A program made the position numbers and the translations under genes. The notes under the pieces were generated by a model. The model worked only from the letters and a program-made list of their open reading frames with translations, had not been told where the DNA came from and did not search any database. This document shows positions 8,692-43,945 of a DNA stretch of 50,601 nucleotides, piece after piece. How positions within the stretch are numbered: the first letter of the stretch is position 1; every line of letters starts with the position of its first letter. Source of the DNA: Prevotella sp. UBA7764 (GTDB lineage Bacteria; Bacteroidota; Bacteroidia; Bacteroidales; Bacteroidaceae); NCBI GenBank assembly GCA_002481295.1, contig DLDU01000005.1, positions 1 to 50,601 on the forward strand. Direction: 5' to 3'.

Positions 8692-8715
8692 TAACTAACA
8701 ATGGAGATAAAAACT

Positions 8716-9078
8716 TACAAAAGTGCTTCTGCAATAACTTGCATTCTAGAGAGCGAAAAGCCAAAGAAATAGGGAGTTGAATGTCAGGAAAGGACTTTGA
8801 AAGTGAGAAAACAGTGATTTTTGGGTGTCATCTCAGTGGTTTTACCTTGTCAGAACGGTGCTTTGATGAGGTAAAACCACTGAGATGATCGAAAATTCTC
8901 TAGATAATTTATGGGAAAAAGGCGTTTTTGCAATGTGAGATAATGTAAATATAGTTCAACTTTCTGCTTATCAGGTAGTTATAGAATACTTGTAAAAATC
9001 GTAAAATCACGCCCAAGACCATGTCTGCTCGCAAAGATTGCCTTCTCGTGCCCGCTTTTTAGTCAGTTTATCCAACAA
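8716..9078. repeat. Intergenic repeat element, copy A
   Basis: The 678-base gap between lptB and tig has no gene. It shares several blocks with the gap before dnaK. Block i, 9029-9078, aligns ungapped with the reverse complement of 48204-48253 at about 38 of 50 positions, including 17 identical bases. Block ii, 8849-8866, matches 48373-48390 at 16 of 18. Block iii, 8891-8910, matches 48393-48412 at 19 of 20. TACAAAAGT at 8716 recurs inverted at 48601-48609. A perfect 18-bp inverted repeat (8829-8846 with 8870-8887, loop 23) frames block ii. Confidence 0.65.
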
Positions 9079-9250
9079 TTGCTGTTCTTCCTTGCAGTTT
9101 CCGGTTCGCAAGCAGGCTCCCTTTGAAGTAATCCTACCGGTGCTGCGGACAATCCTGTCGTGCCTTATCGCTGAGTAGTTACGGTGCTGAGATGATGGTT
9201 AAAAAAACAAATTTTTCCACCTTATATTAGGTAGATTGGTAAAATATGCG

Positions 9251-15196: not shown

Positions 15197-15273
15197 TCTC
15201 CTTGTCGCTGTTAAATAGCATTAAAGGCTAAAGAAATGGAGGCGCTCATCCTCTCCAATCGGAAAAAAATGAG

Positions 15274-15281
15274 TATATTTG
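15274..15281 (+). promoter_or_regulatory. Putative -7 element for the guaB operon
   Basis: TATATTTG, a perfect TAnnTTTG match, lies 28 bases upstream of the guaB start. An A-run precedes it; no clear TTTG at 19-20 bp. Confidence 0.6.
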
Positions 15282-15291
15282 CACGCAATAA

Positions 15292-16794
<1,503 letters not shown>

Positions 16795-16806
16795 TCATTT
16801 CTTTGC

Positions 16807-18237
16807 ATGAACAAATTATTCTATAGGAAACATGTGATAGTGGGCGCCATGCTTTTGTGTGGCACCCTCTCTTTTGCTCAGAGCGACGATCCTGTCATCA
16901 TGACCATCAATGGTCATCCGGTTCTTCGCTCTGAGTTTGCGTATTCTTATAAAAAAAACAATACCAATGGCGTCCTCGACCGTAAGAGCGTACGCGACTA
17001 CGTGCCGCTGTTTATCAACTATAAGTTGAAGGTGGAGGCCGCCAAGGATGCGCATCTCGACACGCTGTCGTCCTACAAGAAGGAGTTTGCAGGTTATCGC
17101 GACCAGCAGATCCGTCCGGCAATGATTGACAGTGCGGACATTGAGGCAGAGGCCAGAAAGATCTATGAGGAGACTCGTCAGCGCATAGACGATAATGGCG
17201 GCATGGTGCGCGTCTCGCATATCCTTATCGCCATGAAGCAAAAGGCTACACCCGATGAGGAGAAGGCTGCTAAACAACGTATCGACTCAGTTTATACCGC
17301 TTTGCAGCATGGAGCGGGCTTCGCTGCGTTGGCCCGTGAAGTGTCTCAAGATCAGGGTTCCGCCAGTGAGGGAGGGCAGCTGCCCTGGATAGTCAAGGGT
17401 CAGACCTTTCAGGAATTTGAAGATCAGGTGTGGAGTCTTAAAGATGGTCAACTGAGCAAGCCTTTCCTTTCGCCAGCCGGTTGGCATATAGTCTTAAGAC
17501 AAGGCCATCAGAACTTTTATTCTTACGACAGTCAGCGGTCGGACATTCTGCGATTCATCGACCAGCGTAACCTGCGTGAGCAGATCATAGATCAGAAGCT
17601 CGACACACTGGCCAAGCAACGCCATACCACTCCCGGCGCTGTGTTGGCGGCCAAACGGGAAGAGATGGAGAAGCAAGATCCCAATCTGAAGTATCTCATC
17701 CAAGAATACCACGACGGGCTGTTGCTCTTTGCTATCGCCGACAGTACGGTATGGCAGAAAGCCAAGAACGACGAAGCCGGTTTGGTGGAGTTTTTTCGCA
17801 AAAATCGTAAACGCTACCGTTGGGATGCGCCTCGCTTCAAGGGTATTGCCTACTGCACGCGTGCGCAGAAAGATATAGATAAGGTGAAGAAAACCGTGAA
17901 GCGTTTGCCGTTCAGCCAGTGGGCAGAGAAGCTTCGCGCCACTTTCAATGCCGACTCCGTGCTTCGCATCCGTGTGGAGAAAGGTATCTTCCGCATGGGT
18001 GACAACGCTTTGGTGGACAAAGAGGTCTTTGGTAAAGACACGATTGCCAAGCCTGTCAAGGATTATCCCTATATGGCCGTCTACGGCAAGAAGCTCAAAG
18101 CACCCAAAGAGATGGACGATGTGCGTGAACTCGTCGTGGCTGATTATCAAGATGCCTTGGAAAAGGAATGGGTAGAGCAGCTGCGCCGCAAGTATCCCGT
18201 CACAGTCAATGAGGCTGTCGTCGACACGGTCAAGTAA
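16807..18237 (+). CDS. Periplasmic parvulin-type peptidyl-prolyl isomerase
   Basis: This 476-residue protein begins with a signal peptide ending near LSFAQ and carries one clear parvulin domain at about residues 135-235 (VSHILIA ... EGGQLPWIVKGQ ... FLSPAGWHIV). The N-terminal part (MTINGHPVLRSEFAYSY) is the SurA/PpiD-like chaperone segment. It should act in the periplasm on outer-membrane proteins. A second isomerase of similar layout is encoded directly downstream, suggesting duplication and shared work. Which one corresponds to SurA or PpiD cannot be decided here. Confidence 0.88.
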   Translation: MNKLFYRKHVIVGAMLLCGTLSFAQSDDPVIMTINGHPVLRSEFAYSYKKNNTNGVLDRKSVRDYVPLFINYKLKVEAAKDAHLDTLSSYKKEFAGYRDQQIRPAMIDSADIEAEARKIYEETRQRIDDNGGMVRVSHILIAMKQKATPDEEKAAKQRIDSVYTALQHGAGFAALAREVSQDQGSASEGGQLPWIVKGQTFQEFEDQVWSLKDGQLSKPFLSPAGWHIVLRQGHQNFYSYDSQRSDILRFIDQRNLREQIIDQKLDTLAKQRHTTPGAVLAAKREEMEKQDPNLKYLIQEYHDGLLLFAIADSTVWQKAKNDEAGLVEFFRKNRKRYRWDAPRFKGIAYCTRAQKDIDKVKKTVKRLPFSQWAEKLRATFNADSVLRIRVEKGIFRMGDNALVDKEVFGKDTIAKPVKDYPYMAVYGKKLKAPKEMDDVRELVVADYQDALEKEWVEQLRRKYPVTVNEAVVDTVK

Positions 18238-21865: not shown

Positions 21866-23800
21866 ATGAGTGATATTATCCAACTTCTTCCAGACTCAGT
21901 TGCCAATCAGATTGCAGCCGGTGAGGTCATCCAGCGCCCCGCCTCTGTCATCAAGGAGCTTGTTGAGAATGCTGTCGATGCCGGTGCCAAGCACATCGAC
22001 GTCGCCGTAGTCGATGCCGGACGCACGTCCATCCAGGTCATTGACGACGGCAAGGGCATGTCCGAGACCGACGCGCGCCTGGCCTTTGAACGCCATGCCA
22101 CGTCCAAGATCCGTAAGGCCGACGACCTCTTCGACCTCCATACCATGGGATTCCGTGGCGAGGCTCTGCCGTCTATTGCTGCCGTAGCGCAGGTGGAACT
22201 GAAGACACGACAACGAGGCGAGGACATCGGCACGCATCTGTCCATTGCCGGCGGTAAGGTGATGGGACAGGAACCGTGTGCTTGCCCCGAAGGTTCCAAC
22301 TTCATGGTGGAGAACCTCTTCTTCAATGTGCCTGCCCGCCGAAAGTTCCTCAAGTCCAACAATACCGAGCTCAATAACATTCTTACGGCATTCCAGCGCA
22401 TCGTACTGGTCTATCCCGATATCGTCTTCCGCCTTCACAGCAATGATACGGAACTGCTCAACCTGCGGGCCTGTGGCTTGCGTCAACGTATCGTCGACAT
22501 CTTTGGCAACCGTCTCAACCAGGACCTTCTGCCCGTGAAGGTGGAAACCTCGCTTTGTGGTATCCATGGCTTCGTGGGCAAGCCTGAGTCGGCAAAGAAA
22601 AAGAATGCCCATCAGTATTTCTTTGTCAACGGCCGCTATATGCGTCATCCTTATTTTGCCAAGGCAGTGATGTCGGCTTTTGAGCGTTTGATACCCCAAG
22701 GCGAGCAGGTGCCGTTTTTTCTCTATTTCGATGTCTCGCCGAAAGATATCGACGTCAACATCCATCCTACGAAGACGGAGATCAAGTTCGAGAACGAGCA
22801 GGCGGTGTGGCAGATTCTCAATGCGGCCGTGAAAGATGCTGTGGGTATTTTCAGCAATGCTACCACACTGGACTTTGACACGGAGGGTAAGCCCGACATT
22901 CCGGTCTTCGATCCCGGCAACAGGGCTTCCATGCCGAAGGTAGACTTCGATCCGCAATATAACCCGTTCACAGCGTCGGTGCCGTCCTCTGGTGGCTCCA
23001 GCGCCTTGCGTCCTTCCCGTATGGGCTCTGCCAACTTCCATGCCTCTCAGTTGGGGTCTGAGGGCATCCACGCCTCTCGCATGGGCAGTTCGGCATCAGC
23101 GTTTGCTGACCTCGACGCATTGGCGGGTGGTGCTTCGTCATCATCTTTCAATAGTACACCGTCTTCAGTGCCTGAGGATTTCTTCCCTCAAGAGAACTGT
23201 ACGACGGCAGGTGCCAAGCAGGTGCTTGAGGAAAAGGCGCCGTCGCACTACCAGTATAAGGGGAAATACATCATGACAGCCGTGAAGTCGGGGCTGATGA
23301 TTGTGGATCAGCATCGGGCACATATCCGCATTCTCTTTGAGCTGTATCAGAAGCAACTGGAGGCAAAGAAGATGCGGGCGCAGAAGGTGCTCTTCCCCGA
23401 GTCGCTGGAACTTACGGCTCAGCAGCAAGTGACCTTAGGACAGATCATGCCAGAATTGCAGGCTATGGGTTTTGAGCTGACAAGTTTAGGTGGAAATACG
23501 TGGTCGGTCAATGCTATGCCGGAAGGTCTTGACGGCATCAACGTGATGGATCTGCTCCACGACATGCTTGACGGTGTCCATGCTACGGGTGATGAGGCTT
23601 TACAGAAGGTCAATGAACAATTGGCATTGACGATGTCGCGTGCCGCTGCGATTCCTTATGGTCAGGTGCTTCAGAACGATGAGATGGAAAATATCGTCAA
23701 CAGTCTCTTCCTCTGCAGTAATGTCAACTACACGCCCGATGGCCATAAGATTCTCTGCATCCTCAAGCAGCAGGAGATAGAGCAGATGCTGGGGGAATAG
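21866..23800 (+). CDS. mutL: DNA mismatch repair protein MutL
   Basis: MutL (644 residues) couples MutS mismatch detection to strand removal. The GHKL ATPase half is intact: VIKELVENAVDAG, DDGKGM, HATSKI and GFRGEALPSIAAV. A Gly/Ser-rich linker (about 370-450) with repeated RMGS-type units follows. In the C-terminal domain the endonuclease motif DQHA(X2)E(X4)E reads DQHRAHIRILFE from Asp481: Ile replaces the first Glu. The late zinc-site Cys-Pro-His motif is also not recognisable. It may therefore lack nicking activity. The gene is last in the guaB operon. Confidence 0.93.
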   Translation: MSDIIQLLPDSVANQIAAGEVIQRPASVIKELVENAVDAGAKHIDVAVVDAGRTSIQVIDDGKGMSETDARLAFERHATSKIRKADDLFDLHTMGFRGEALPSIAAVAQVELKTRQRGEDIGTHLSIAGGKVMGQEPCACPEGSNFMVENLFFNVPARRKFLKSNNTELNNILTAFQRIVLVYPDIVFRLHSNDTELLNLRACGLRQRIVDIFGNRLNQDLLPVKVETSLCGIHGFVGKPESAKKKNAHQYFFVNGRYMRHPYFAKAVMSAFERLIPQGEQVPFFLYFDVSPKDIDVNIHPTKTEIKFENEQAVWQILNAAVKDAVGIFSNATTLDFDTEGKPDIPVFDPGNRASMPKVDFDPQYNPFTASVPSSGGSSALRPSRMGSANFHASQLGSEGIHASRMGSSASAFADLDALAGGASSSSFNSTPSSVPEDFFPQENCTTAGAKQVLEEKAPSHYQYKGKYIMTAVKSGLMIVDQHRAHIRILFELYQKQLEAKKMRAQKVLFPESLELTAQQQVTLGQIMPELQAMGFELTSLGGNTWSVNAMPEGLDGINVMDLLHDMLDGVHATGDEALQKVNEQLALTMSRAAAIPYGQVLQNDEMENIVNSLFLCSNVNYTPDGHKILCILKQQEIEQMLGE

Positions 23801-23846
23801 CCTGCTAAATCTAAAGCCTATTATGTTTAATAGACGATGAATAAAA

Positions 23847-23882
23847 AAAGGTTTTGGAACCAGATGGTTCCAAAACCTTTTT
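23847..23882. terminator. Bidirectional terminator between mutL and ompA-like gene
   Basis: A stem of about 16 bp (AAAAGGTTTTGGAACC, loop AGAT, complementary arm) is flanked by A-run and T-run; it can end both convergent units. Confidence 0.9.
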
Positions 23883-23902
23883 ATTTTTGAGCTTTTTCAG
23901 TC

Positions 23903-25066
23903 TTACTCAGCCACCTGCACTGTAGCGCGACGGTTGAAGGAAACAGGAGACAGCTCGTCAACACCACCCTTGCCGACGGTGTTGATGTTAGAGCGGTCTA
24001 CACCCATCTTCACGAGCTCGTCAGCAACAGTAGCTGCACGACCCTCAGAGAGCTTCTGGTTGATTTCTGGAGTACCGGTAGCGCTGTCTGCATAACCAGT
24101 AACGTTCAGCTTGCTGCCGTTCTCCTTAGCATACTGGGCGACAGCCTTCACGTTGACAAGATCCTTCTGAGAAGCGATGTCGGTGTGGTTGATGTTGAAG
24201 AAGACAGACACCGGAGTGGTGACGAAGTTCTTGACAGCCTTCGGGGTCTCTTTGGGCTGCTCGCTGAGGAGCTTCTTCAGACGTGCGTTCTCGGTGTTAG
24301 CATCGTCGAGCTGACCCTGGAGAGCGTCGAGCTGGTTCTGATACATAGCCTTCAGAGCGTCTACGTCAGGCACTTTGTTCCATGTGCTCTTGCCCAGGTT
24401 GAAGGTCAGACCCACCTCAGCATAGAGGTGATTGTCCTTGTCTTCCCATCCACGCAGATTGTGCGTGTTACCTTTGAAGTTACTGCTTGCGCTGTAACCG
24501 TCGAAGTCTTCCTCCATACGGTTCCAGCCACCTTCAACATAGACGTTCATCTTGTCGCACAGGCGCCAAGAGGACTGCAAACCGACGCTCAACTGCATAG
24601 CGTAGAGGTTGGTCTTGCAGTTGCGGGAGAAACCACCACCGGCAAAGGGAATCACGTTCCACACACGGTTGGGGTTGTAGCCGAAGAGCAGGTTGCTCAT
24701 GTTGAACATTACATGCTCGTTCAGTGTCCAGAATTTCATGCCGTTGCCAGCGTTGTTGCCGTCAGTGACAGCCTTGCCCCAGATACCCTGCAGTTTAGTG
24801 CGGAGTCCGATGCCCGGAGTAAACCACTTACCGATAGCGACAGAGGCGCCCGGGTTACTGCGGAACTTCTTGAACGGGCTCTTAGACAGACCCAGTCCGT
24901 GCTCCTCGTTGCTGTACCAAGCACTCCAGTCAACACCACCCTGGATAAACCAGTTGCTCCAGAAAGAGTTGGTGGCCACGCTGTACTTCTGTACGGGGGT
25001 TGTCTCCTGAGCCTGAGTGCCCAAGGCGAAACCGGCAAAAGCCAATGCAATGAATAACTTTCTCAT
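23903..25066 (-). CDS. OmpA-family outer-membrane protein (left copy)
   Basis: The 387-residue product has a signal peptide (MRKLFIALAFAGFALGTQAQ), an N-terminal eight-strand-type barrel region to about residue 225, a short coiled-coil linker (LDALQGQLDDANTENARLKK), and a C-terminal OmpA peptidoglycan-binding domain (NVTGYADSATGTPEINQKLSEGRA). It would tether the outer membrane to the cell wall. ATG 25066 is chosen because it begins the signal peptide. A related OmpA gene lies at 33178 in mirror position across the recombinase, each next to a surface-lipoprotein gene. Its own promoter box is at 25143-25150. Confidence 0.92.
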   Translation of the reverse strand: MRKLFIALAFAGFALGTQAQETTPVQKYSVATNSFWSNWFIQGGVDWSAWYSNEEHGLGLSKSPFKKFRSNPGASVAIGKWFTPGIGLRTKLQGIWGKAVTDGNNAGNGMKFWTLNEHVMFNMSNLLFGYNPNRVWNVIPFAGGGFSRNCKTNLYAMQLSVGLQSSWRLCDKMNVYVEGGWNRMEEDFDGYSASSNFKGNTHNLRGWEDKDNHLYAEVGLTFNLGKSTWNKVPDVDALKAMYQNQLDALQGQLDDANTENARLKKLLSEQPKETPKAVKNFVTTPVSVFFNINHTDIASQKDLVNVKAVAQYAKENGSKLNVTGYADSATGTPEINQKLSEGRAATVADELVKMGVDRSNINTVGKGGVDELSPVSFNRRATVQVAE

Positions 25067-25142
25067 AACTTTAACTATTAATAATTGATTAAATGAATGA
25101 TCTATTGATGCTTCTTCATTAAGCTTATACATGCTATGCGTG

Positions 25143-25150
25143 CAAAGTTA
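25143..25150 (-). promoter_or_regulatory. Putative -7 element for the left OmpA gene
   Basis: On the minus strand this reads TAACTTTG, a TAnnTTTG match, 77 bases upstream of the start; a leader of about 70 bases is predicted. The rest of the 267-base gap is T-rich with no gene. Confidence 0.55.
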
Positions 25151-25333
25151 ATAATTTTTTTCTTATGATGGCGTTTTTTCTCCTTTTTTTGCATTTTCCC
25201 CCCTATTTTTACGTGTAAGAGCCTAAGTAACGGTGTTTTTTGACCATATCCCGCTTTTATGCTGGGCTTTTTATCCAACATGAACGTCCCCTGATATGTC
25301 TAATCAAAGAGAGCCTAAACTCTCAACAAATTA

Positions 25334-26526
25334 TTACTGCTTCTTCACAGTCACAGCAACAGAGATGGTAACGGGCTGTCCGAATACATCCTTTGCCTTG
25401 ATCGTCAGCGTAGAAGGCACATCAGCCGTCGGGTTGGTGGTGCCACTCTGCGGTTTGAACTCGATCTTGGTCTTGTCGGCACTGAACACAGCCTTGAAGT
25501 AGTCTGCGTGCTTGCTGCCATTAGATGTCAGCTCAACACTCTCGAGCACATAGCAGTTCTTCAGCGCTGTAAGTGTCTTGCCGCCTAACTTGGTAGCATT
25601 GTAAGTGTTCTCGCTTGTAAACTTAGTAAGAAGAATCGTCTGATTAGCCTCTTCATACTTTAACTCAAGTTTGCTTGCGCTCCAAGTCATGATAGGAGCA
25701 GCGAGAACATCGCAGTAAATAGTCTTGAATGCATCGGAAGTCGGAGTATAGTCTTTGCCTGTTTCCCACTTGCCGTTATCCTTTCTTGTGCTGATACCAC
25801 CATAATTGTATGTGATGGTAGTAGCATGCTCGGTCGTGTTGTCAATCAACGAGGGAGCGACTTCCAGTTTGAAATCACGTGGATGAACCTCCAACGTCTC
25901 TTTATTCTTATCACCAGTTGTCTCAGCGAAGTTCACAGCATAGCGATAGATGTAATTGTCATCGAAGTTGATGACATTTACCATGTTCATGGTACCTTTG
26001 GAAGCCGAATTAGCAGCATTCCACTTCGTAGGATCTGCCTCGCCCTCAGGCAACAGATAGCAATTGTAGACACCCTTTACAAGCTGATTGTCCTTGAAGG
26101 AGTATTCCTTCGGAGCCGTTGGTAACACCACATACTTCTTCTGTGCAGCATCGTAAGTGTACTTGTCGAACTTGCCAGTTGTAGCGTTAGGAACATAGTA
26201 GTCACCGTTCTGGCCGTCCTTACCGTCTTTACCGTTCAGGCCGTCCTTGCCATCGATACCATTTGTACCGTTAATGCCATTCTTGATGGTGTAAGAATTG
26301 CCATTACTCAAAGCCAAGACAACACCGTCGCTTGTCGACGTGACGCTGGTGAGAATTGCACCATTGTCGATCTGCTTCTGAATCTTCTCCTGAAGGGTCT
26401 TCTACTCATCGATCTGCGATTGCAGATTGTTGATGTCGTCGTCGTAGTCCTTACAGGAAGTCAATGATGTTGTAGCGGAGGCAATCAGCGCGCTCACCAT
26501 CAATGTGCTCAATAATTTTTGTTCAT
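25334..26526 (-). pseudogene. Broken surface lipoprotein gene, left arm of the switch
   Basis: Read from ATG 26526 the frame hits a stop after five codons. Adding one base to the A5 run (26519-26523 region) restores a lipoprotein start with LTSCKDYDDDIN, the same lipobox and following residues as the gene at 28324. A second lesion, TAG at 26402-26404, interrupts the sequence after QSQIDE; one base change from CAG would explain it. Beyond it 327 codons are open, with collagen-like GxY triplets (NGIDGKDGLNGKDGKDG) and an end VFGQPVTISVAVTV resembling VFGQTPQTLYSVVTV of the right gene. The N-terminus resembles DUF4988/PL29-type N-domains. Two independent lesions favour a true pseudogene over a read error. 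Confidence 0.8.
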
Positions 26527-26556
26527 ACGACAAATTTAAATTAAACAATATAATTA
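26524..26556. repeat. 33-bp leader/start repeat, left copy
   Basis: Identical to the reverse complement of 28294-28326. It covers the ATG and the AT-rich leader just upstream in both surface-lipoprotein genes. Confidence 0.92.
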
Positions 26557-26609: not shown

Positions 26610-26633
26610 GACTGCAATCTCCGCCGGGGAGAC
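26610..26633. repeat. Crossover-site repeat, left
   Basis: 24-bp repeat, identical in inverted orientation to 28217-28240. It contains a small imperfect dyad, TCTCC-GCCGG-GGAGA, as expected for a tyrosine-recombinase core site. It lies 83 bases upstream of the left gene's ATG. Confidence 0.85.
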
Positions 26634-26657
26634 ACAACGGTGTCTTGAATCGAGATA

Positions 26658-26740
26658 TTACCAAAGCGTGGTAATGTGATTACAAAACTGTGGTAAAGAC
26701 ATTACCAAACTATGGTAAAGACATTACCAAACTGTGGTAA
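26658..26740. repeat. Four palindromic 17-bp iterons at 22-bp period
   Basis: Units start at 26658, 26680, 26702 and 26724 (exactly 22 bp apart) with consensus TTACCAAACTRTGGTAA, a dyad of TTACCA/TGGTAA. Spacers are 5 bases (TGTGA, AGACA, AGACA). The 22-bp period, two DNA turns, puts all sites on one face. They may bind the recombinase as accessory sites or a regulator. Confidence 0.88.
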
Positions 26741-26872
26741 CATCACAATTGTTTAACGCATTAGGTTGACTACGACGGGCCTTGTTTTTAAAGTTGGTTG
26801 ACCCGGTTAAACATTACTTTTATTTTTGATTGATATGTTGATGTAGCTTGGAGACCTGAGGCAAGCGCATTA

Positions 26873-26890
26873 TACACCTTATTATATATA
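26873..26890 (-). repeat. 18-bp post-stop motif, copy 1
   Basis: TATATATAATAAGGTGTA on the minus strand, 25 bases after the recombinase stop. Identical copies are at 34333-34350 and 43714-43731, also just after stop codons and in the sense of the upstream gene. Confidence 0.75.
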
Positions 26891-26915
26891 GGCCGTCTAT
26901 TACTGGGACAAAACA

Positions 26916-27950
26916 CTATAGGAGCTCTCCTTTTATTTGCTCTATCACCTTTTCATTTGCTTCGTCCACACGATGGGCAGCGATGGCTTCAAGATAGATA
27001 CGGGTGGTACGCTCCGAGGTATGTCCTAAGGCCGCGCTGATCACCGGCAGGGGCACATGGCTAGCTTGTGCGATGCTCGCCCACGAATGGCGTGCCACAT
27101 ACATCGTCAGTGGACGAGGCAACTCCAAGATCCTGCCTAATGACTTCAGCGCATAGTTCACACGATACTGCATCGTCTTGAAGGCCCGCTGCTCGTCTTC
27201 TACACCTCTTTTAATAATAGGGAGCAGATACGGCTGGCCGTCTTCATGGTACCACACGACGATCTTCTCCATCTCCGGCAACCATGCCATGCTGAGCCGC
27301 TGCCCCGTCTTATGCCGCCGGTAGACAAGGATGCCCTGCTGGATGTCGCTTCGCCGTAGGTACGCCATGTCGACGAACGACATCCCGCGTGTGTAGAAGC
27401 TGAAAAGAAAGAGGTCACGAGCAAGACGTTGCATCGGCTTCTTCAGTTCCATCCTCGCCAGTCTGCTGATCGTCACAGCGTCGAGCGCCCGCTTCGCCGT
27501 CTGCGCGTTGCCCGTGTAGACAGCGTCGAAGAGGACATTGGGCAGGTATAGTCCCGCCTCGTGCGCCTGGTTGCAGGCAGCTCGCAAACGCTTCATGTAA
27601 AAACCAATCGTGTTCAGCGACAGACCATCCCTGTGGAGTTGCGAATCGAAGTCCGCTATCCACGAGTCATCAAAGAGTGCGCCGGCATCCCCGTGTCTGA
27701 CCTTCTTCATCCGCCGCGCCGTACTTCGGTAAGTCTCTGCCGTGCGCACATGCCCCTGCCTCTCCTTTTCGTCTGCGACATGCTCCATCCACGCCATCAT
27801 GCGACCTACTGTCCATGGTGTGTCGCCATGAGCACCGCCCGTGGCGATGGCCGCCGACTTGATGTCGGTCAAGTGAAGTTGCAGAACCAGTGAATCAGAG
27901 TGAGAAAAGTACGAACGAGGTACTTCAAATGTTAAAATATTCCCTTTCAT
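26916..27950 (-). CDS. Tyrosine recombinase, probable DNA invertase
   Basis: This 344-residue site-specific recombinase has an N-terminal SAM-like core-binding domain (about 40-140) and a C-terminal catalytic domain. Catalytic residues visible are Arg188 (FYTRGMSF), Lys214 (RRHKTGQ), Arg287 in YVARHSW, His310 (ALGHTSERT) and the nucleophile Tyr319 (RIYLEAI). Tyr284 stands where many members have the first His of the H-x-x-R box, a common Bacteroidetes variant. It lies inside the 1.6-kb segment bounded by identical inverted repeats and between two divergent related genes, which argues for an invertase rather than an element integrase. No other mobile-element genes are near. Confidence 0.93.
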   Translation of the reverse strand: MKGNILTFEVPRSYFSHSDSLVLQLHLTDIKSAAIATGGAHGDTPWTVGRMMAWMEHVADEKERQGHVRTAETYRSTARRMKKVRHGDAGALFDDSWIADFDSQLHRDGLSLNTIGFYMKRLRAACNQAHEAGLYLPNVLFDAVYTGNAQTAKRALDAVTISRLARMELKKPMQRLARDLFLFSFYTRGMSFVDMAYLRRSDIQQGILVYRRHKTGQRLSMAWLPEMEKIVVWYHEDGQPYLLPIIKRGVEDEQRAFKTMQYRVNYALKSLGRILELPRPLTMYVARHSWASIAQASHVPLPVISAALGHTSERTTRIYLEAIAAHRVDEANEKVIEQIKGELL

Positions 27951-28013
27951 AGTGATAAAAAGATATTATTGTAACCTATTTTTCGGTTTGTTGATAAAAA
28001 GTCGCCCAAAAGT

Positions 28014-28044
28014 TTTGTTTTATGAAGAATAAACCTTAATTTTG
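28014..28044 (+). promoter_or_regulatory. Second rightward promoter inside the invertible segment
   Basis: TTTG at 28014-28017, 19 bp, then TAATTTTG at 28037-28044. It points toward the right-hand surface gene. A 31-codon open frame at 28061-28156 follows, with a purine-rich stretch too close to its ATG to be a good ribosome site. The rest of 27951-28323 has no gene. Confidence 0.65.
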
Positions 28045-28172
28045 CAGAGTGAAAAGAGGTATGTTATGGAGTGATTCAGTAGGACAAGCATGGAAATCTG
28101 CCTTAAATAAAAGGATGGAACCGCTAAATTTCAACAAAATTAAGCACCTTTCTTGAAAAAGACAAGATTTTA

Positions 28173-28204
28173 TTTGCGTGTCTTAAGAATTATCCCTATA
28201 TTTG
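28173..28204 (+). promoter_or_regulatory. Invertible promoter, currently facing the right gene
   Basis: TTTG at 28173-28176, 20 bp, then TATATTTG at 28197-28204, a near-perfect Bacteroidetes promoter. The -7 box ends 12 bases before the crossover repeat at 28217, so transcription starts at the edge of the repeat. No equivalent box is found at the left end of the segment pointing left. Confidence 0.82.
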
Positions 28205-28216
28205 CCACCAGATTGC

Positions 28217-28240
28217 GTCTCCCCGGCGGAGATTGCAGTC
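28217..28240. repeat. Crossover-site repeat, right
   Basis: Inverted identical partner of 26610-26633, 83 bases upstream of the ATG at 28324 and 12 bases downstream of the promoter's -7 box. Confidence 0.85.
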
Positions 28241-28293
28241 GTCTGCTGTCAATAGGCATGCGGTAAAGTCGCGTGAATTGAGAGTTAATTTAT

Positions 28294-28326
28294 TAATTAT
28301 ATTGTTTAATTTAAATTTGTCGTATG
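28294..28326. repeat. 33-bp leader/start repeat, right copy
   Basis: Reverse complement of 26524-26556 without mismatch; includes the start codon at 28324. No Shine-Dalgarno is present in this AT-rich leader. Confidence 0.92.
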
Positions 28327-31300
28327 AGAAAGACATTATTAAGTGTGATGATGCTCAGCGCCCTGACGGTCGCTACGACATCATTGACATCTTGTAAGGA
28401 TTACGATGATGACATCAACGCCAACACGACTGAGATTAACAATCTCAAGACGCAGTTGGCTACGTTGCAGTCGGCATTGGATCAGGCAAAGTCAGAAGCT
28501 ACTACTGCCCATGCCAACTTCGCAACAAAGGGTGATCTGAGTGATCTGAAGACAGAGATGGCTAAACTGGCTACTGCTGACGCTCTGCAGAAGGTTAAAG
28601 ATGACCTGACAGCACTGATCAACGGTAAGGTGAGCCAGAGTGACTACGATGCTAAGGTCAAGGAGATTGAGACTGAGATCGACGGTATCGATAGCAAACT
28701 CAACACACTGGGCACAAGCCTGAACAACTTGGAGACTGCTCAGAAGGCTGCTGACGCTAACATCAAACTGCAGCAGACTGCTTTGGAGAATCTGCAGAAG
28801 GCTCTTGAAGAGGGTCTCGCAGCTAAGGCTAACCAGAGCGACGTTACGGCACTGCAGAATCAGATCAAGGCACTGAAGGATGACATCAAGTCACTCTCCG
28901 GCTCAAGCTCTTCTCTCTCTGATCTGAAGAAGCAGATGGAGGACCTGAACAAGAAGGTGGATGAGCTCGGCACACAGATCAATGTGCTGACTGTCTTCGT
29001 TAAGCACGCTCTTGCTTCTCTGACCTTCATCCCCGACTACTTCACTGAGGGTATCGAGGCTGCTTTGGTTCCCGCATATGAGGGCGCTTACAGCGAGACA
29101 AGCGACAACAAGGCATTCACTACTAAGGGTGCTGCCACTGACCTGCTGTCTGGCTATGGCATCGCCCGCTACCAGGTGAGCCCGACGACAGTTGATCTTG
29201 TTGGCTCTAAGGCTGACTTCTATTCTTTGGCTTCTACTGTCCTGAGCCGTGCTGGCGCAAACCTGATCAGCCCTGTTAACACAGAGTTGACAGCCAATGT
29301 TCTGAAGGAAAACTACAAGGATGGTATCCTGACCGTTCCTTTCAAGGCTGACTTTGCTACTATCAGCAAGTTGGATAAGAGTAAACTTCCTGTTGCTGCA
29401 TTGCAGATCTCTCGTGGTGACACCACTGTTACTTCTGACTACGCGACAGTTGTAGCCAAGACTTTCTCCAGTATGGTTGTTGCTGATAATGGTGCTCACA
29501 ATGCTGTTGTGAAAGCTGATAACTGCCCACAGGGCGTTGACGGCCTGTACCACTTGTTCACAACATGGAGTACCATGACTGCTGCTAATGCCAACATCAC
29601 TCACCAAGTTGCCTACAACAGCCATCTGAACCTCGACTCTATCGCTGAGGTACACGTAACTGCTGACAACGCAGAGCGTACGCTTTCTGCTGCAGAGCTG
29701 AAGGCTCTGGGTCTGAAGGTGGTTTTCGTTCCTGTTGACTATACACAGGGTGGTAACAAGACAAGCGAGACCGCACATATCGAGCTCGAGACAGAGAATG
29801 GCCAGACAGTGGCTTATCCTCGCAACGTCACCGCTGACGGCAAGACCATTGAGGATAAAGTTGCCAACAACGCTTCTGTAGGCCGTGAGCCTATCGTTGT
29901 TGCAAAGGTCGTTGATGAGGCTACCGGCAAGAAGGTCTATGCTTGGGGCTATATCAAGATCAAGATCACCGCTCCTAAGCAGGCTATCTCTCAGATCACT
30001 ACTGATCCTATGACCTTCACAGGTGATATCTATGACAACTGCAAGGATGCAGAGTTGACGACTACCTGGTCTCAGATCGAGGCTTTGGTTTATTCTAAGC
30101 TCAACATCTCTAAGGAGAACTTCGAGGCTACTTACGAGCTGGATGACAACACATCTGACGCTAAGCAGTTTGAGGTGAAGGACGGCGCATATGCTGAGGC
30201 TGCCAAGATTGGTGTCGTAAGTGAGAAGCAGGACGCAAATGATCCTACTACCAACATCCTGAGCTGGAAGCTGAGCGCTGAAACACTGAAGGCTCTGAAG
30301 TCTAAGGTTGCTGTCAACAGCAATGGTGTCAGCACCAAGAGTGTGACGGTCTATGTCCACTTCAAGTTGAAGGGCAGCACAGAGGCCAGCGAGGGCGTTT
30401 ATGTTCCTCTGACGATCAAGGCCGGTCAGCTCCACTATGCTGTCGCTTCTATCGATGGTAGCAAGGTTCTTGCTCAGTGGTATAAGCTGAACTCTACCAC
30501 CAATGCTACTTCTACATCCGGTGATGATGAGGTTCGTATCAACGTGCCTGTTCCTACAACAGCTGACAACAAGCTGGAGGCTACTGAGTTCACCCGTGAC
30601 CTGCACAACTACTTCTTGAACAACACATTGAGCTACAAGCTCAACGATGAGACTCACTTCTCTGCTCTCAAGAATGGCAAGCTCGTGTTCAAGTTCATCA
30701 CTCCTTCCACAAAGGTCGGCAATGCTACATTCAATGCTGATGAGGAGGGTGCCTGGACCGTTAAGGGTGTCTCTGGTACCACTTATACTCTGAAGGTTGC
30801 CAATGACCGCGAGATCGACATCGTGAAGATGGGCGATCAGGATGTTAAGACACAAATTGTCTCTCTTGACGATAAGGGTAACATCACCTTCAATGAGAGC
30901 AAGATGGCTGACGATATCTTGAACTACAAGGGTCATAATGCACTGGGTGAGCGTGAGACCTTCACTGCTTACATCGGTATGGCAATTGAAGGCGCTTGCA
31001 CGGATGTTCCTTTGAATGGCAAGACTTGGTTCAACGTTCGCTTCGTACGTCCTGTTGACCTGACTCAGCCTGAGGCTTACTCTGTCAAGGATGCTCCTAA
31101 CGAGTGGCAGGACATCGATGTCGCTGACCTCGTAAAGGTTTACGACTGGCGTAACTATGTAGGTGATCCTAAGAACACCAATAAGGGTAAGGATGAGAAC
31201 AACAAGTTCGACTTCGCTTACTATGGCATTGAGCTCGCTACCGACGCAGAGGCTATCTACACCGATGCTAACCTGGGCTCTGACCAGCGTACAGTCCTGA

Positions 31301-31536
31301 AGGATGCTGCATCTATTGAGAAACTTGTCAAGACAAGCTCTATCAGTGGTCTGCTTCTGAAGCAGGGTAGCTCCAAGAGCCAGCTCCAGTACAAGAACAG
31401 CAGTGCTGTTACCGGTACCTTCCATCTGTATGTCCCTGTGAAGATGACTTACGTCTTCGGTCAGACTCCTCAGACTCTCTACAGTGTTGTCACTGTGACC
31501 AAGTCTGAAGGTCAGAAGACTGCTAAGAAGTACTAA
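28324..31536 (+). CDS. Large surface lipoprotein, putative S-layer-like
   Basis: This 1070-residue protein begins with a lipoprotein signal (lipobox LTSC, Cys at residue 24) followed by an acidic DYDDDIN. Residues 30-225 are heptad-rich coiled coil (LKTQLATLQSALDQAK, ALQNQIKALKDDIKSL). A conserved-looking junction (LTFIPDYFTEGIEAALVP) leads into about 800 residues of beta-rich, Ig-like sequence with almost no Cys. There is no C-terminal sorting domain or peptidase motif. The design is reminiscent of the phase-variable S-layer proteins described in Bacteroides thetaiotaomicron (BT1927 family). It has a phase-switchable promoter and a strong terminator of its own, which suits an abundant single product. 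Lipoprotein nature is secure; S-layer role is inference. Confidence 0.8.
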   Translation: MRKTLLSVMMLSALTVATTSLTSCKDYDDDINANTTEINNLKTQLATLQSALDQAKSEATTAHANFATKGDLSDLKTEMAKLATADALQKVKDDLTALINGKVSQSDYDAKVKEIETEIDGIDSKLNTLGTSLNNLETAQKAADANIKLQQTALENLQKALEEGLAAKANQSDVTALQNQIKALKDDIKSLSGSSSSLSDLKKQMEDLNKKVDELGTQINVLTVFVKHALASLTFIPDYFTEGIEAALVPAYEGAYSETSDNKAFTTKGAATDLLSGYGIARYQVSPTTVDLVGSKADFYSLASTVLSRAGANLISPVNTELTANVLKENYKDGILTVPFKADFATISKLDKSKLPVAALQISRGDTTVTSDYATVVAKTFSSMVVADNGAHNAVVKADNCPQGVDGLYHLFTTWSTMTAANANITHQVAYNSHLNLDSIAEVHVTADNAERTLSAAELKALGLKVVFVPVDYTQGGNKTSETAHIELETENGQTVAYPRNVTADGKTIEDKVANNASVGREPIVVAKVVDEATGKKVYAWGYIKIKITAPKQAISQITTDPMTFTGDIYDNCKDAELTTTWSQIEALVYSKLNISKENFEATYELDDNTSDAKQFEVKDGAYAEAAKIGVVSEKQDANDPTTNILSWKLSAETLKALKSKVAVNSNGVSTKSVTVYVHFKLKGSTEASEGVYVPLTIKAGQLHYAVASIDGSKVLAQWYKLNSTTNATSTSGDDEVRINVPVPTTADNKLEATEFTRDLHNYFLNNTLSYKLNDETHFSALKNGKLVFKFITPSTKVGNATFNADEEGAWTVKGVSGTTYTLKVANDREIDIVKMGDQDVKTQIVSLDDKGNITFNESKMADDILNYKGHNALGERETFTAYIGMAIEGACTDVPLNGKTWFNVRFVRPVDLTQPEAYSVKDAPNEWQDIDVADLVKVYDWRNYVGDPKNTNKGKDENNKFDFAYYGIELATDAEAIYTDANLGSDQRTVLKDAASIEKLVKTSSISGLLLKQGSSKSQLQYKNSSAVTGTFHLYVPVKMTYVFGQTPQTLYSVVTVTKSEGQKTAKKY

Positions 31537-31584
31537 GAAGAATATCGTAATCGGAACTGACGTTCCATTACTCAAATAACATGT

Positions 31585-31618
31585 AGAGGGGTGTCAACTT
31601 GTTGGCACCCCTCTTTTT
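31585..31618 (+). terminator. Terminator after the surface lipoprotein gene
   Basis: Stem AGAGGGGTG with CACCCCTCT, extended by CAA/TTG pairing, followed by five T residues. Confidence 0.9.
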
Positions 31619-31638
31619 CACTTAAATACATTTGACAA

Positions 31639-32160
31639 ATGAAATACCGTTATTTATATCTGTATCTGATGCTTGCGGCTTCCTTAGGTCTTACTTCATG
31701 CAAGGACAAGCAGAAGAACGTGAAGACGCTCGAGCAAGACTATGTCCAGCAACCACAGATGATCTTGTCGAGTAACGATAGCAACGAGGTACGTGACGCA
31801 GTGAACTACTATCTGACGGCGCTGAACCATAAGCAGGTCGACAAGGCTTTGTCAATGCTCTTCTATTATGATCTGAAGACGAACAAGGTGCGCCGACTCA
31901 CGGATAAGGAGAATGCTGAGCAGAGAGCAGTGCTCACTCGCTTTGCCGGTTACAGAGCAGAGATCGAGTATATCAAGTTTTTCCGCGAGAATGACTCTGA
32001 GGTAAAGTACAATATCTACTTCTCTGATAAACCTTCTACGCCAAGCAATCCCAATTGTATGGGCTTCATGATCCGCCCCGTTCGTTTGGAAGGTCGCTGG
32101 TATCTGACACTTGCCGGTGAAAACCAGGCTACATATAGTTCTCAGATTGACAAGCAGTAG
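31639..32160 (+). CDS. Predicted lipoprotein
   Basis: A 173-residue protein with lipobox GLTSC (Cys about residue 21) and a mature domain resembling a small cone-shaped NTF2-like fold (VRDAVNYYLTALNHKQVDKALSMLF). No catalytic motif is seen. It lies after the terminator of the surface-lipoprotein gene, so it may be expressed by read-through or an unseen promoter. Part of the envelope cluster that ends in the right-hand OmpA gene. Function unknown. Confidence 0.75.
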   Translation: MKYRYLYLYLMLAASLGLTSCKDKQKNVKTLEQDYVQQPQMILSSNDSNEVRDAVNYYLTALNHKQVDKALSMLFYYDLKTNKVRRLTDKENAEQRAVLTRFAGYRAEIEYIKFFRENDSEVKYNIYFSDKPSTPSNPNCMGFMIRPVRLEGRWYLTLAGENQATYSSQIDKQ

Positions 32161-32190
32161 TAGAGGAGGATATCACTCCTTACAGTCTCA

Positions 32191-32333
32191 CCCCCTTTGC
32201 CCTCTCCGGAGGAGAGGGGGAGCGGCTTACTTTCAAGAAGGTTGGTGCGGGAATAATGCCCGTCACTACACTGTCACCTTTGCACACGGATGAGTATTGC
32301 TTTCCCTTCCCCTTGGGGAGGGCTAAGGAGAGG
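32191..32333. repeat. REP-like palindromes between two lipoprotein genes
   Basis: Positions 32304-32333 closely match the element at 111-140 (core GGGGAGGGCTARGGAG). Positions 32191-32225 hold a second GC-rich palindrome (CTCTCCGGAGGAGAG). The 210-base gap has no gene. Confidence 0.5.
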
Positions 32334-32371
32334 TTTGAGATTTAGAGAGGGGCTCCATATTTTCATATACC

Positions 32372-32779
32372 ATGAAACGAATATTCTATTTACTATTATT
32401 TATGTCATTGCTGACAGCCTGCCATCGTAGTCAGAATGTACCGGTGTCTTATTCTAAGGCTCGCATCACGTTTGAGACCGATGAGCATAACTTTGGCGAC
32501 AGCGTGATCCACCATGAACCACAAACCTACGACTTCGTATTTCATAATGTCGGTGCGACACCTCTTGTCATCTATAAGGCCGAAGGCAGTTGCTTTTGTA
32601 CGCAGGCTACCTTTGATAAGGATCCTATTCAGCCCGGTGAGGAGAGCGTGATCCATGTCACTTATCAGGCAAACAATGGTACGGGACATTTCCTGCACTA
32701 CGTTTCCGTTTACAGCAATGGTGCTGACAGCACGGGTGTCACCTCGCTGCGTATAGAGGGCGCAGTAAGGGAGAAGTAG
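32372..32779 (+). CDS. DUF1573 lipoprotein
   Basis: This 135-residue protein has a short lipoprotein signal (LLTAC, Cys about residue 16) and one DUF1573 domain, an Ig-like fold common in Bacteroidetes. Family features seen are FGDSVIHHEPQTYDFVFHNVGATPL, the Cys pair in GSCFCTQATF and PGEESVIHVTY. Molecular role is not known for the family; a surface or periplasmic structural role is likely. Confidence 0.85.
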   Translation: MKRIFYLLLFMSLLTACHRSQNVPVSYSKARITFETDEHNFGDSVIHHEPQTYDFVFHNVGATPLVIYKAEGSCFCTQATFDKDPIQPGEESVIHVTYQANNGTGHFLHYVSVYSNGADSTGVTSLRIEGAVREK

Positions 32780-32988
32780 GCATCATATCTGTTCTTATGT
32801 TACTATATCTTTTCTTCTCTGTGGCTCTGTGTGATGAAAATTGATGCCGTTCTTTGTGTCCTTTGCGCCTTGGCGATAAACATGTTTTCTTCGTGTCTCA
32901 GTCACGAGCATTCGCTTGCTGATAAGTCTGTAAATCGCCTTTATTGTGAGATTTATAAAAAATTAATGTCAGATTCAGGCCTTTTTCG

Positions 32989-33018
32989 TTGCGGATTCAA
33001 TTATTTTTCGTATCTTTG
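32989..33018 (+). promoter_or_regulatory. Promoter for the right OmpA gene
   Basis: TTG at 32989-32991, 19 bp, TATCTTTG at 33011-33018. It gives a leader of about 150 bases before 33178. In the 398-base gap 32780-33177 nothing else is convincing; 32840-32880 contains a low-complexity CTTTGTGTCCTTTGCGCC stretch. Confidence 0.68.
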
Positions 33019-33177
33019 TCGAAAATTTAGATAAAAAAGAAGGGGGACGCCAAACACAAGTCATTTTCGTGGGGGAAGATGGATTGTGACAGGATGGATG
33101 TTTTCCTTTTGTGTGTTGTATGTGATACGGCATGCAAGCATAGACGAATTACAAGAACAATTATAAAAATAAGCGCT

Positions 33178-34302
33178 ATGAAGTTAAAATCACTCTTTAC
33201 GATTGCTGCCCTCGCTCTGGGGACAGTCTCTGGTATGGCCCAGGCTACTTACACAGCCAAGGACGGCACAGAGTACACATTCAAAAAGCATTTGTTCCTC
33301 GATCTCCAGGGGGGCGCACAGTACACACTGGGTGAGGCAAAGTTTGACAAGCTCATCTCTCCGAACGTACAGCTCGGTCTGGGCTACCAGTTCAATCCTT
33401 GGTTCGGCGCGCGTCTGCAGGCCAACGCTTGGCAGAGTAAGGGTGGCTACAATGGTATTGACGAGAATGGTAAGCCCGTTCCTGTGACTTCTACCTACAA
33501 GTTCAAGTATGTCGCTCCGGGCTTGGACTTCATGTTCAACCTGAGCAACCTGTTCTGTGGTTGGAATCCTAATCGTGTGTTCAACGTGACAGCTTTCCTC
33601 GGCGGCGGAGCCAACATTGCTTGGGCCAACGATGACGCTGTGGCTATGCATGCCGGCAACGGTGTAGTGATGCGCTATCTCTGGGACGGCACAAAGGTTA
33701 AGGCTTTCGGCCGTGGCGGTGTGGATCTGAACTTCCGCGTAAGCGATGCTGTAAGCATCATGCTCGAGGGTAATGCGAACATCCTCAACGACCGCTACAA
33801 CAGCAAGAAGGCCGGCAACGCAGACTGGTACTTCAATGCGCTCGCCGGTTTGCGCATCAACCTGGGTAAAGGCTATACCAAGAAGGCTCCGGAACCAGAG
33901 CCGGAACCAGCTCCAGAACCAGTGAAGGAAGAGGTTGTCGCTCCGGCACCAGCTCCAGCTCCAGTTCCTGTTCAGAAGGTTGAGCCGATCCGTCGTGACG
34001 TGTTCTTCCGCATCAACCGTTATTTGGTGACTACTCAGGAGCAGTCAAAGGTTGAGGATATCGTCAACTACCTCAACGAGCATCCTGATGCTAAGGTGAC
34101 CGTTACAGGCTATGCTGATGCCGGTACTGGTAACAATGTTATCAACGACCGTATCGCTAAACGCCGTGCTGATGCCGTGACCAAGATGCTGATGGATAAG
34201 GGTGTCGCTGCTGACCGCATCACTACTGACAGTAAGGGTGCACGCGTACAGCCTTTTGCTGAGAACGACAAGAACCGTGTCAGCATCATGATCGCTGAGT
34301 AA
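33178..34302 (+). CDS. OmpA-family outer-membrane protein (right copy)
   Basis: The 374-residue product has a signal peptide (MKLKSLFTIAALALGTVSGMAQ), a barrel region to about 235, a Pro/Glu/Ala-rich linker (PEPEPEPAPEPVKEEVVAPA) and a C-terminal OmpA domain (VTVTGYADAGTGNNVINDRIAKRRADAV) that should bind peptidoglycan. ATG 33178 starts the signal peptide and lies behind the promoter. It is related to the left OmpA gene; both share the barrel stretch around NxxRVxNV and the OmpA domain, but the linkers differ (coiled coil versus Pro-rich). Confidence 0.93.
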   Translation: MKLKSLFTIAALALGTVSGMAQATYTAKDGTEYTFKKHLFLDLQGGAQYTLGEAKFDKLISPNVQLGLGYQFNPWFGARLQANAWQSKGGYNGIDENGKPVPVTSTYKFKYVAPGLDFMFNLSNLFCGWNPNRVFNVTAFLGGGANIAWANDDAVAMHAGNGVVMRYLWDGTKVKAFGRGGVDLNFRVSDAVSIMLEGNANILNDRYNSKKAGNADWYFNALAGLRINLGKGYTKKAPEPEPEPAPEPVKEEVVAPAPAPAPVPVQKVEPIRRDVFFRINRYLVTTQEQSKVEDIVNYLNEHPDAKVTVTGYADAGTGNNVINDRIAKRRADAVTKMLMDKGVAADRITTDSKGARVQPFAENDKNRVSIMIAE

Positions 34303-34332
34303 TCGCATTTCCTGTCTCTCTGTGCCGTGCCT

Positions 34333-34350
34333 TATATATAATAAGGTGTA
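34333..34350 (+). repeat. 18-bp post-stop motif, copy 2
   Basis: Same 18 bases as 43714-43731 and the minus strand of 26873-26890; begins 30 bases after the OmpA stop and precedes the terminator. Confidence 0.75.
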
Positions 34351-34377
34351 GACAATTTGAGAGAAAATCCAATAATA

Positions 34378-34411
34378 AGAGGCTTCGGAATGTTTTCGAA
34401 GCCTCTTTTTT
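34378..34411 (+). terminator. Terminator after the right OmpA gene
   Basis: 10-bp stem AGAGGCTTCG/CGAAGCCTCT with a 9-base loop and six T residues. Confidence 0.9.
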
Positions 34412-34576
34412 AGGTTTGTGGCAGACTTGTTTAAATTAGTTTAAACGACAGAAAGAGCCTTTGTGGGGAATAGTTTTGTTTATGCTTTTGCACCCAGGAT
34501 TTTTAGTTAACAACATAAATATCGTTTGTAATTATGGGAGTTGTTATTTTCTAACGTTTTTTGCAGGTTGGAAAAG

Positions 34577-34607
34577 TTGCGATTCTCAAAACTTTGCATT
34601 ACCTTTG
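34577..34607 (+). promoter_or_regulatory. Promoter for the S1-domain gene
   Basis: TTG at 34577-34579, 20 bp, TACCTTTG at 34600-34607; the ATG follows at 34636. The rest of the 333-base gap holds the terminator and the 18-bp motif. Confidence 0.7.
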
Positions 34608-34635
34608 CAAGTAAGCATAACAAGCACATAAGACG

Positions 34636-35532
34636 ATGGATACAGAAATCAAGATTGGAAACTATAATACGCTGAAGATGACACGGGTGGCTGAGCGCCC
34701 TAATCCTCACGCCTTTGGAGGTAAGGAGACTTTCGGCATCTTCCTCGACGGTGGCAAGGAAGGCGAGATACTCATGCCGCAGAAATACGTGCCGGAACAC
34801 GTAAAGGTGGGCAGCGACGTTCATTGTTTTGTCTATCTCGACCAGGACGAGCGGCTCATCGCCACTACCGAGAAGCCACTGGCTAAGGTCGGTGACTTCG
34901 CCTTTCTGAAATGTTCGTGGGTCAACGAGTACGGTGCCTTCCTCGACTGGGGACTGATGAAGGATCTTTTTTGTCCCTTCCGTGAGCAGAAACGGCGCAT
35001 GGAGATCGGCGAGAGCTATATCGTCTATGTCTATGTTGACCAAGACAGTTACCGCGTGGCTGCTACGGCTAAGGTGGACCGCTGGCTTCACGACGTGCGT
35101 GAGGACAATGGCGGTGGATTGCACCGAGGCGTGGAAGTAGACCTGCTCGTGTGGCAGAAGACGGAGCTGGGTTTTAAGGTGATCATCAACAACCGCTATG
35201 CAGGACTGGTCTATAAGGATCAGATCTTCCAGTATATCCATACGGGCGACTGCGTGAAGGGCTACATTCTCAATGTGCGTGAAGATGGAAAAATTGATGT
35301 CTCGCTGCAGCCGATAGGGCGTCGGCAGACGCTTGACTTCGCTGAGATGCTGCTCGAATGGATCAAAGCGCACGACGGTCACTGCCCGTTCAACGACAAA
35401 AGTGATCCCGACGACATCAAACGTGAGTTTCAAGTGAGCAAGAAAGTGTTTAAGAAGGCTGTTGGTGATCTCTACAAGAGGCAGCTGGTCACTATCAGCG
35501 ACAGTGGGCTTGAGCTCACTAAGAAAAGGTAG
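34636..35532 (+). CDS. S1-like RNA-binding protein, CvfB family
   Basis: This 298-residue protein has several OB-fold/S1-like repeats: residues about 1-60, 65-140 (VGDFAFLKCSWVNEYGAFLDWG) and 150-225 (VDLLVWQKTELGFKVIINNRYAGLVYKDQIF), then a C-terminal winged-helix domain (about 235-298). This is the layout of CvfB (YitL), which binds RNA and affects virulence-factor or global expression in Firmicutes. Target RNAs here are unknown. It stands alone with its own promoter. Confidence 0.85.
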   Translation: MDTEIKIGNYNTLKMTRVAERPNPHAFGGKETFGIFLDGGKEGEILMPQKYVPEHVKVGSDVHCFVYLDQDERLIATTEKPLAKVGDFAFLKCSWVNEYGAFLDWGLMKDLFCPFREQKRRMEIGESYIVYVYVDQDSYRVAATAKVDRWLHDVREDNGGGLHRGVEVDLLVWQKTELGFKVIINNRYAGLVYKDQIFQYIHTGDCVKGYILNVREDGKIDVSLQPIGRRQTLDFAEMLLEWIKAHDGHCPFNDKSDPDDIKREFQVSKKVFKKAVGDLYKRQLVTISDSGLELTKKR

Positions 35533-43713: not shown

Positions 43714-43731
43714 ATATATATAATAAGGTGT
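43714..43731 (+). repeat. 18-bp post-stop motif, copy 3
   Basis: Same 18 bases as 34333-34350; 50 bases after the FKBP stop. Here it is enclosed by a GTCCTA/TAGGAC stem (43709-43714 with 43729-43734). Confidence 0.75.
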
Positions 43732-43945
43732 AGGACGCGGCGGAGAGCATCGGGGCATGGTCTTTTTTGTTTGTTCCGGTCTTTTTCTGTTGTCTTCAAT
43801 GGCTGTCTTGGCAGCATAGTCCTCGGTGGCTGCTGTGCAAACGATTGTCCCGCGCTTCTGGGCTGAGAAATTGTTGTGTGCGCACACACTTTATTGATAT
43901 AGGTCAAAAATCCCCTCTTTTTGCATAAAAACGATAAGGGAATCG

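Follow-up and report, generated by a model that had tools for sequence, protein, structure and literature searches.

The 50,601-nucleotide stretch of Prevotella DNA analysed here (the window) holds 1.6 kb of DNA between two back-to-back sets of surface-protein genes, and this piece carries both a promoter and a recombinase gene. The question is whether it can be inverted by its own recombinase, so that a single promoter serves one gene set or the other. We consider it very probable that the piece is such a self-contained flip cassette, in which the recombinase inverts the 1.6-kb segment and the promoter drives either the right or the left lipoprotein gene. A preceding sequence-only reading had proposed an invertible promoter cassette with the recombinase inside, aimed at surface lipoproteins, and this was supported: the promoter lies between inverted repeats and is reversed in a sister species (genome G274). 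The contig of the window belongs to a 2.85-Mb Prevotella genome (71 contigs, 88.6% complete).

The segment is bounded by a left repeat at 26610–26633 (plus strand), the presumed recombination site, and a right repeat at 28217–28240 (minus strand). The two are exact reverse complements over 24 bp (28 nt at 96% in a separate repeat search). Each contains a palindrome of the form TCTCC-N5-GGAGA with an asymmetric centre; the left core, TCTCC-GCCGG-GGAGA, occupies 26618–26632 and the right core 28218–28232. Among exact inverted repeats of at least 18 bp in the window this pair ranks second in length. The longest (34 bp) links 26523–26556 on the minus strand with 28294–28327 on the plus strand, and consists of the leader and ATG of the left and right lipoprotein genes. 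The earlier count of 33 identical bases over leader and start codon was therefore right about the shared leader and one base short in length.

Recognised sites elsewhere had been named as an observation that would speak against the switch. Genome-wide, the TCTCC-N5-GGAGA form occurs 19 times, compared to once for a control pattern, leaving 17 palindromes besides the two of the cassette. None of these 17 has the cassette's core centre, and none is preceded by TTTGC at 8–30 bases; the one promoter–core match in the genome is the cassette itself. We cannot explain the genome's excess of these palindromes. Three palindromes of this form are on contig C64, whose end also has a partial integrase match.

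Between the repeats, at 26916–27950 on the minus strand, lies the gene for a 344-aa tyrosine recombinase, the presumed invertase, just as the sequence-only reading had placed it. It matches PF13102 (42 bits; cut-off 22.3) and PF00589 (28.6 bits; cut-off 27.1). When aligned to XerA and XerD, the protein keeps five of the six active-site residues R-K-H-R-H-Y (Arg, Lys, Arg, His and Tyr), and the first His is replaced by Tyr.

The main outward promoter, P2 (TTTG-N20-TATATTTG; 28173–28204, plus strand), is a consensus match of the Bacteroidota type 12 bases inside the right repeat, as reported earlier, and it is identical in G274. A second outward promoter-like site, P1 (TTTG-N19-TAATTTTG; 28014–28044, plus strand), had gone unnoticed; it points the same way as P2 and is identical in G274 and in a further genome, G305. 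These two consensus matches in the segment compare with a mean of 0.02 in 300 base shuffles. No consensus promoter pointing out of the left end of the segment was found, in agreement with the earlier description of that end.

The non-coding stretch from the recombinase gene to P2 (27951–28172) is unusually conserved, and holds P1 together with a possible leftward recombinase promoter, with the −7 box TAATTTTG and a −33 match assessed visually. Over the 289 columns that run from the start of the recombinase gene to the end of the right repeat, window and G274 have 18 mismatches (93.8% identical). The recombinase coding sequences are 82.2% identical, with 56 of 89 four-fold sites the same. Between these two species, 27951–28172 is better conserved than the adjoining recombinase gene. 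The rightward transcript from P1 folds better than shuffled sequences (z −2.31; 4 of 200 as good). The recombinase leader gave no sign of a structured RNA, its fold being poorer than those of most shuffles (z +1.61; 194 of 200 as good). A short reading frame lying between P1 and P2 was discarded on account of a stop in the copies of the sister species. An Rfam search gave two matches only, both far below the gathering scores.

On the right side, P2 is aimed at a 1070-aa lipoprotein with the lipobox SCKDYDDD, as had been stated; its open frame is intact (28324–31536, plus strand) and its leader with start codon occupies 28294–28327. The AlphaFold2 model has a coiled-coil stalk and tandem beta domains (mean pLDDT 83.6). 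We take this lipoprotein and its left counterpart to be surface proteins, going by their sequences. Further along the plus strand are genes for a small 173-aa lipoprotein (31639–32160) and a DUF1573 protein (32372–32779), and the cluster ends, three genes down from the large lipoprotein, with an OmpA-family protein (33079–34302; PF00691), in which the barrel model PF13505 scores 24.4 bits, below its cut-off of 28.7. A terminator-like hairpin follows the cluster at 34377–34407 (plus strand). Another (13 pairs, then a T run) lies directly 3' of the large lipoprotein gene at 31585–31614 (plus strand); this weakens the reading of the right side as one operon, and the downstream genes may be transcribed less or apart.

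The left cluster is on the minus strand. Its leader and start codon (26523–26556) are identical to the right leader over all 34 bases, and a lipoprotein gene follows at 25334–26525, recognised by homology. The earlier claim that related lipoprotein genes diverge beyond each repeat thus stands as far as leaders and homology go; what it had missed is that the left gene is broken. Two lesions were observed: the signal peptide is where the frame breaks off, and about 40 codons further on there is an in-frame stop. The start codon at 26525 does not share the reading frame of the lipoprotein, in which 327 open codons remain. Residues 65–326 of this remnant resemble residues 634–919 of the left lipoprotein of genome G107 (33%). 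Its closest protein elsewhere, P0241 (94%; in a cluster of 13), has the same internal start point; judging from these protein starts, the break is probably common to other sequences and not an assembly slip. The OmpA-family gene of the left cluster (23903–25132, minus strand) is intact, and its product is 95.9% identical to that of G274 and a distant paralogue (25%) of the right one. A hairpin of terminator type on both strands follows at 23845–23882 (listed on the minus strand). That inversion would swap the transcribed gene is therefore only half true here: on the left, the OmpA gene is whole and the lipoprotein gene is not. With the left lipoprotein broken, the two-state reading is incomplete in this genome, where a flip would be nearer to ON/OFF than to a gene swap.

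A fixed orientation in relatives had been named as the case that would refute inversion. The comparison comprised one relative with a complete syntenic locus, G274, and there the segment is reversed. Its recombinase is 84% identical to that of the window. At the G274 locus (L069), window positions 23536–25280 and 28279–34833 align piecewise with order and direction kept, and 26944–28419 aligns in reverse; the promoter–recombinase block is flipped between collinear flanks. P2 is the same letter for letter, and in G274 points left at an intact 1152-aa lipoprotein; P1 points left there as well. The 1070-aa lipoprotein on the right of that locus is 88.5% identical to the one in the window, and at this unpromoted end a −7 box, TATTTTTG, stands by itself with no −33 box. 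The G274 segment also has an extra stretch (L069 11289–12488) encoding a 399-aa protein to which no Pfam family could be assigned with confidence. As read from the aligned sequences, the anatomy, the conserved promoter and the opposite orientation in the sister species are observations. Both orientations occur, one in each of two species, and from this we infer inversion within one population.

Searches for the opposite orientation within the same species and for more sister species gave the following. The window's own assembly has no second contig with the left end. A scan of genome contigs gave two loci, those of G274 and G305; the G305 recombinase is on a 3035-bp contig that ends inside the segment, from which orientation is not readable. 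Among 396 genomes around G274 (many of them again genomes of the genus), only G274 itself was found at E≤1e-100. Scans of viral contigs gave seven pattern matches for the recombinase, none of them a relative, and no stretch matching a 22-bp piece of the core.

We then placed the recombinase within its family. A search of 398 genomes of the genus gave matches at E≤1e-50 in 80 genomes, with 111 places listed (window included); the 101 loci examined are the window and 100 fetched loci, and 10 of the listed places were left out. An automatic count of palindromic site pairs classed 8 loci as having the recombinase inside, 28 as having the pair on its 3' side, 1 as other and 64 as none; this last class also takes in contig ends and imperfect sites, and so does not prove that sites are absent. 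Checking by hand brought the inside class to seven: L084 was removed (its repeat is OmpA coding DNA), L179 was set aside as unknown, and L069 was added (one core mismatch). The 3'-side class fell to 24 with the removal of L135 and L161 (runs of N), L141 (a simple repeat) and L116 (three sites). When exact inverted repeats were counted more loosely, 14 loci fell in the inside class, 47 in an adjacent class and 40 in none; some of these repeats were coding matches. Thus, at least 24 of the 101 loci have a small inverton (126–202 bp between sites, mostly TCTCTT-N3-AAGAGA) 3' of the recombinase gene, an association that we count in favour of recombinase-driven inversion.

The seven loci with the recombinase inside the segment are those of the window, G274, G120, G339, G107, G094 and G389. 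The first five adjoin lipoproteins with the SCKDYDD motif, and in all of these the promoter is at the 5' side of the recombinase gene and diverges from it; G107 (L071) is without a recognisable TCTCC core. In G120, G339 and G107, each arm likewise has, in this order, a large lipoprotein, a small protein and an OmpA-like protein, going by sequence likeness. In G094 (L181 5622–7335) and G389 (L185 5484–7513) the segment, with CCTCT..AGAGG cores, lies between divergent operons of outer-membrane receptors; both G094 receptors have TonB plug domains, and the SusC/SusD label in G389 is by likeness.

Five of 14 SCKDYDD loci (window, G274, G120, G339 and G034) carry a core ahead of each of the two divergent lipoprotein genes, and a two-box promoter ahead of just one of them; the other nine do not show this paired layout. 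In G034 (L074), the paired switch (14466–17305) contains an AbiL-like AAA ATPase gene and its 170-aa neighbour, and the recombinase gene lies outside at 8137–9171. The half-sites TCTCC/GGAGA are common to these cores. Within a locus the two ends have one and the same centre, and G120, G339 and G034 each have another; shared half-sites around a locus-specific centre would be expected where recombinase arms enclose a crossover region. Window and G274 share a centre, the left G274 copy differing at one half-site base.

On a tree of the 101 proteins, the bootstrap of which had not settled, going by the well-supported branches, at least five changes are needed to account for the inside state, which shows no clear clustering (as low a number in 65 of 500 shuffles). 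These sequences suggest that the state may have arisen more than once, or may have been missed in relatives.

In the mechanism that we propose, leftward transcription of the recombinase gene probably starts at a promoter of its own within the conserved non-coding DNA. The recombinase would bind the palindromic TCTCC-N5-GGAGA cores at both ends and presumably itself catalyse inversion of the 1.6-kb segment. The strong outward promoter would move with the segment and drive either the right or the left lipoprotein gene and, if transcription reads on, also the genes behind each down to the OmpA-family gene. In this genome the left state would yield no complete lipoprotein, and might nevertheless yield the left OmpA protein. 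Against this model we counted the Tyr in place of the first active-site His, the hairpin at 31585–31614, the lone −7 box of G274, the missing core in G107, the outside position of the recombinase in G034, the 17 further palindromes, the broken left gene and the single relative complete enough for comparison.

The alternative that survives best is that the switch is locked or dying, one orientation now being kept in the lineage with its left lipoprotein broken. The two lesions fit this, as does the start of P0241, which suggests a shared break and not an assembly slip. The frame of the recombinase, both cores and the promoter are, however, intact and conserved, and the conserved left OmpA gene suggests that the left state may still matter. 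Compatible as it is with a flip design, we regard this alternative as unlikely, though a serious contender.

The opposite orientations could also have come about by homologous recombination between the inverted leaders, with the recombinase doing another job, for instance at distant sites. In favour of this are the leaders, which are exact inverted repeats of 34 bp here and measure 92 bp in G107 and 103 bp in G120, as well as the coreless locus of G107, the outside recombinase of G034 and the 17 other palindromes. The positions of the breaks argue otherwise: between window and G274 the direction changes between P2 and the leaders, where the core lies (not placeable to the base), and the core-to-leader DNA stays with the outside and not with the inverted block. 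The core centres, which match within a locus and differ from one unrelated locus to another, and the single promoter–core combination in the whole assembly also stand against leader recombination, which we judge very improbable. Finally, a mobile element with terminal inverted repeats inserted between two lipoprotein genes, which a gene flanked by inverted repeats resembles in outline, is hardly credible given that promoter and cores recur in the control regions of lipoprotein pairs in other genomes, that the enzyme is of the phage-integrase family and that the locus is syntenic in the sister species.

As to the origin of the cassette, twenty further loci were chosen from leader matches, hence not at random (G027 and G081 are also among the 101). 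Eighteen of them have an SCKDYDD lipoprotein by motif, with a −7 box upstream in 15 of the 18 and an inverted site pair, of the small type, in one (G058). A fixed promoter is therefore usual in the sampled relatives of the lipoprotein, and the invertible cassette is probably derived. This suggests a route to such switches in which control of a lipoprotein passes from its usual fixed promoter to an invertible one, and the recombinase ends up within the switch. More tentatively, and with the odds somewhat against it, we propose that in Prevotella diverging duplicated lipoprotein genes were repeatedly made into mutually exclusive two-state switches by capture of the ancestral fixed promoter and a tyrosine recombinase in a flip cassette. 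In this reading, the leftward recombinase promoter and P1 overlap within non-coding DNA that is better conserved than the enzyme, and this might couple how often the segment flips to surface-gene transcription.

Among known systems, the Hin flagellar switch of Salmonella is alike in having invertase and outward promoter inside the segment, and two surface states alternate there. Hin is a serine recombinase, and Pfam gives the enzyme of the cassette phage-integrase families only, not those of a Hin-type switch. The present cassette thus differs in its tyrosine recombinase, and also in its type of site and in the paralogous surface genes at both ends. In the accessible part of PMC5903667, Hin is the named example of an invertase gene inside its invertible segment. 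The invertase inside its own switch, singled out earlier as the unusual point, is accordingly not new in kind, and within this recombinase family it recurs at 7 of 101 loci.

Promoter inversion for surface proteins was correctly described as known in Bacteroides, where tyrosine recombinases invert promoters for surface products, as the available portions of the reports describe (PMC4747536, PMC12548429, PMC12632263). In B. fragilis Tsr19/BF2766, likewise a tyrosine recombinase with Bacteroidota promoters for surface products, one inverted promoter precedes a cluster with a lipoprotein gene; the recombinase, encoded close to one promoter segment, acts on a remote segment as well (PMC4747536, in part). 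Here, the recombinase is inside, and no second promoter–core combination was found in the assembly. BT1927 of B. thetaiotaomicron, a large S-layer lipoprotein with a putative outer-membrane barrel partner, is also behind an invertible promoter (PMC12548429 and PMC12578637, in the parts available); BT1927 is ON/OFF, whereas here one promoter lies between two divergent lipoprotein genes. B. intestinalis has large invertible TonB/SusD surface clusters, often flanked by a dedicated recombinase gene. Surface gene clusters are under inversion in both cases; there the clusters themselves appear to invert, whereas here promoter and recombinase move and the surface genes stay (PMC8375218, accessible part).

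A literature search by titles and abstract starts, with subscription papers mostly outside its scope, found no such switch in Prevotella; by titles and abstract starts it also found no tyrosine recombinase inside a promoter inverton, hsdS loci being outside this scope. In hsdS loci, a tyrosine recombinase lies within the shuffled region. The cassette looks like a working switch of a known general type, Bacteroidota promoter inversion, and what looks like the new part, on sequence grounds, is the Hin-like anatomy with a tyrosine recombinase, an uncommon layout. Prevotella thereby gains a phase-variation system that can be tested directly, since its enzyme, core site, promoter and both gene sets are defined. 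A forced state of the S-layer lipoprotein gives B. thetaiotaomicron phage resistance (PMC12548429, in part), which makes such a role worth testing here.

The segment has further features downstream of the recombinase gene. Four tandem 22-bp units with the palindrome TTACCA-N5-TGGTAA (three exact, one with a mismatch) occupy 26653–26740; exact copies occur nowhere else in the genome, which has two other one-mismatch places, and a control pattern also gave 6 matches per strand. As period-22 arrays are common in the 101 recombinase loci of the genus (34 arrays), we claim no switch role for these palindromes. Next to them, 88 bp of non-coding DNA (26751–26838) are 84% identical to two places in genome G002 and one in G038, and could be left over from a mobile element. 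The 18-bp sequence TACACCTTATTATATATA is found at 26873–26890, 34333–34350 and 43715–43732 of the window, once in one direction and twice inverted.
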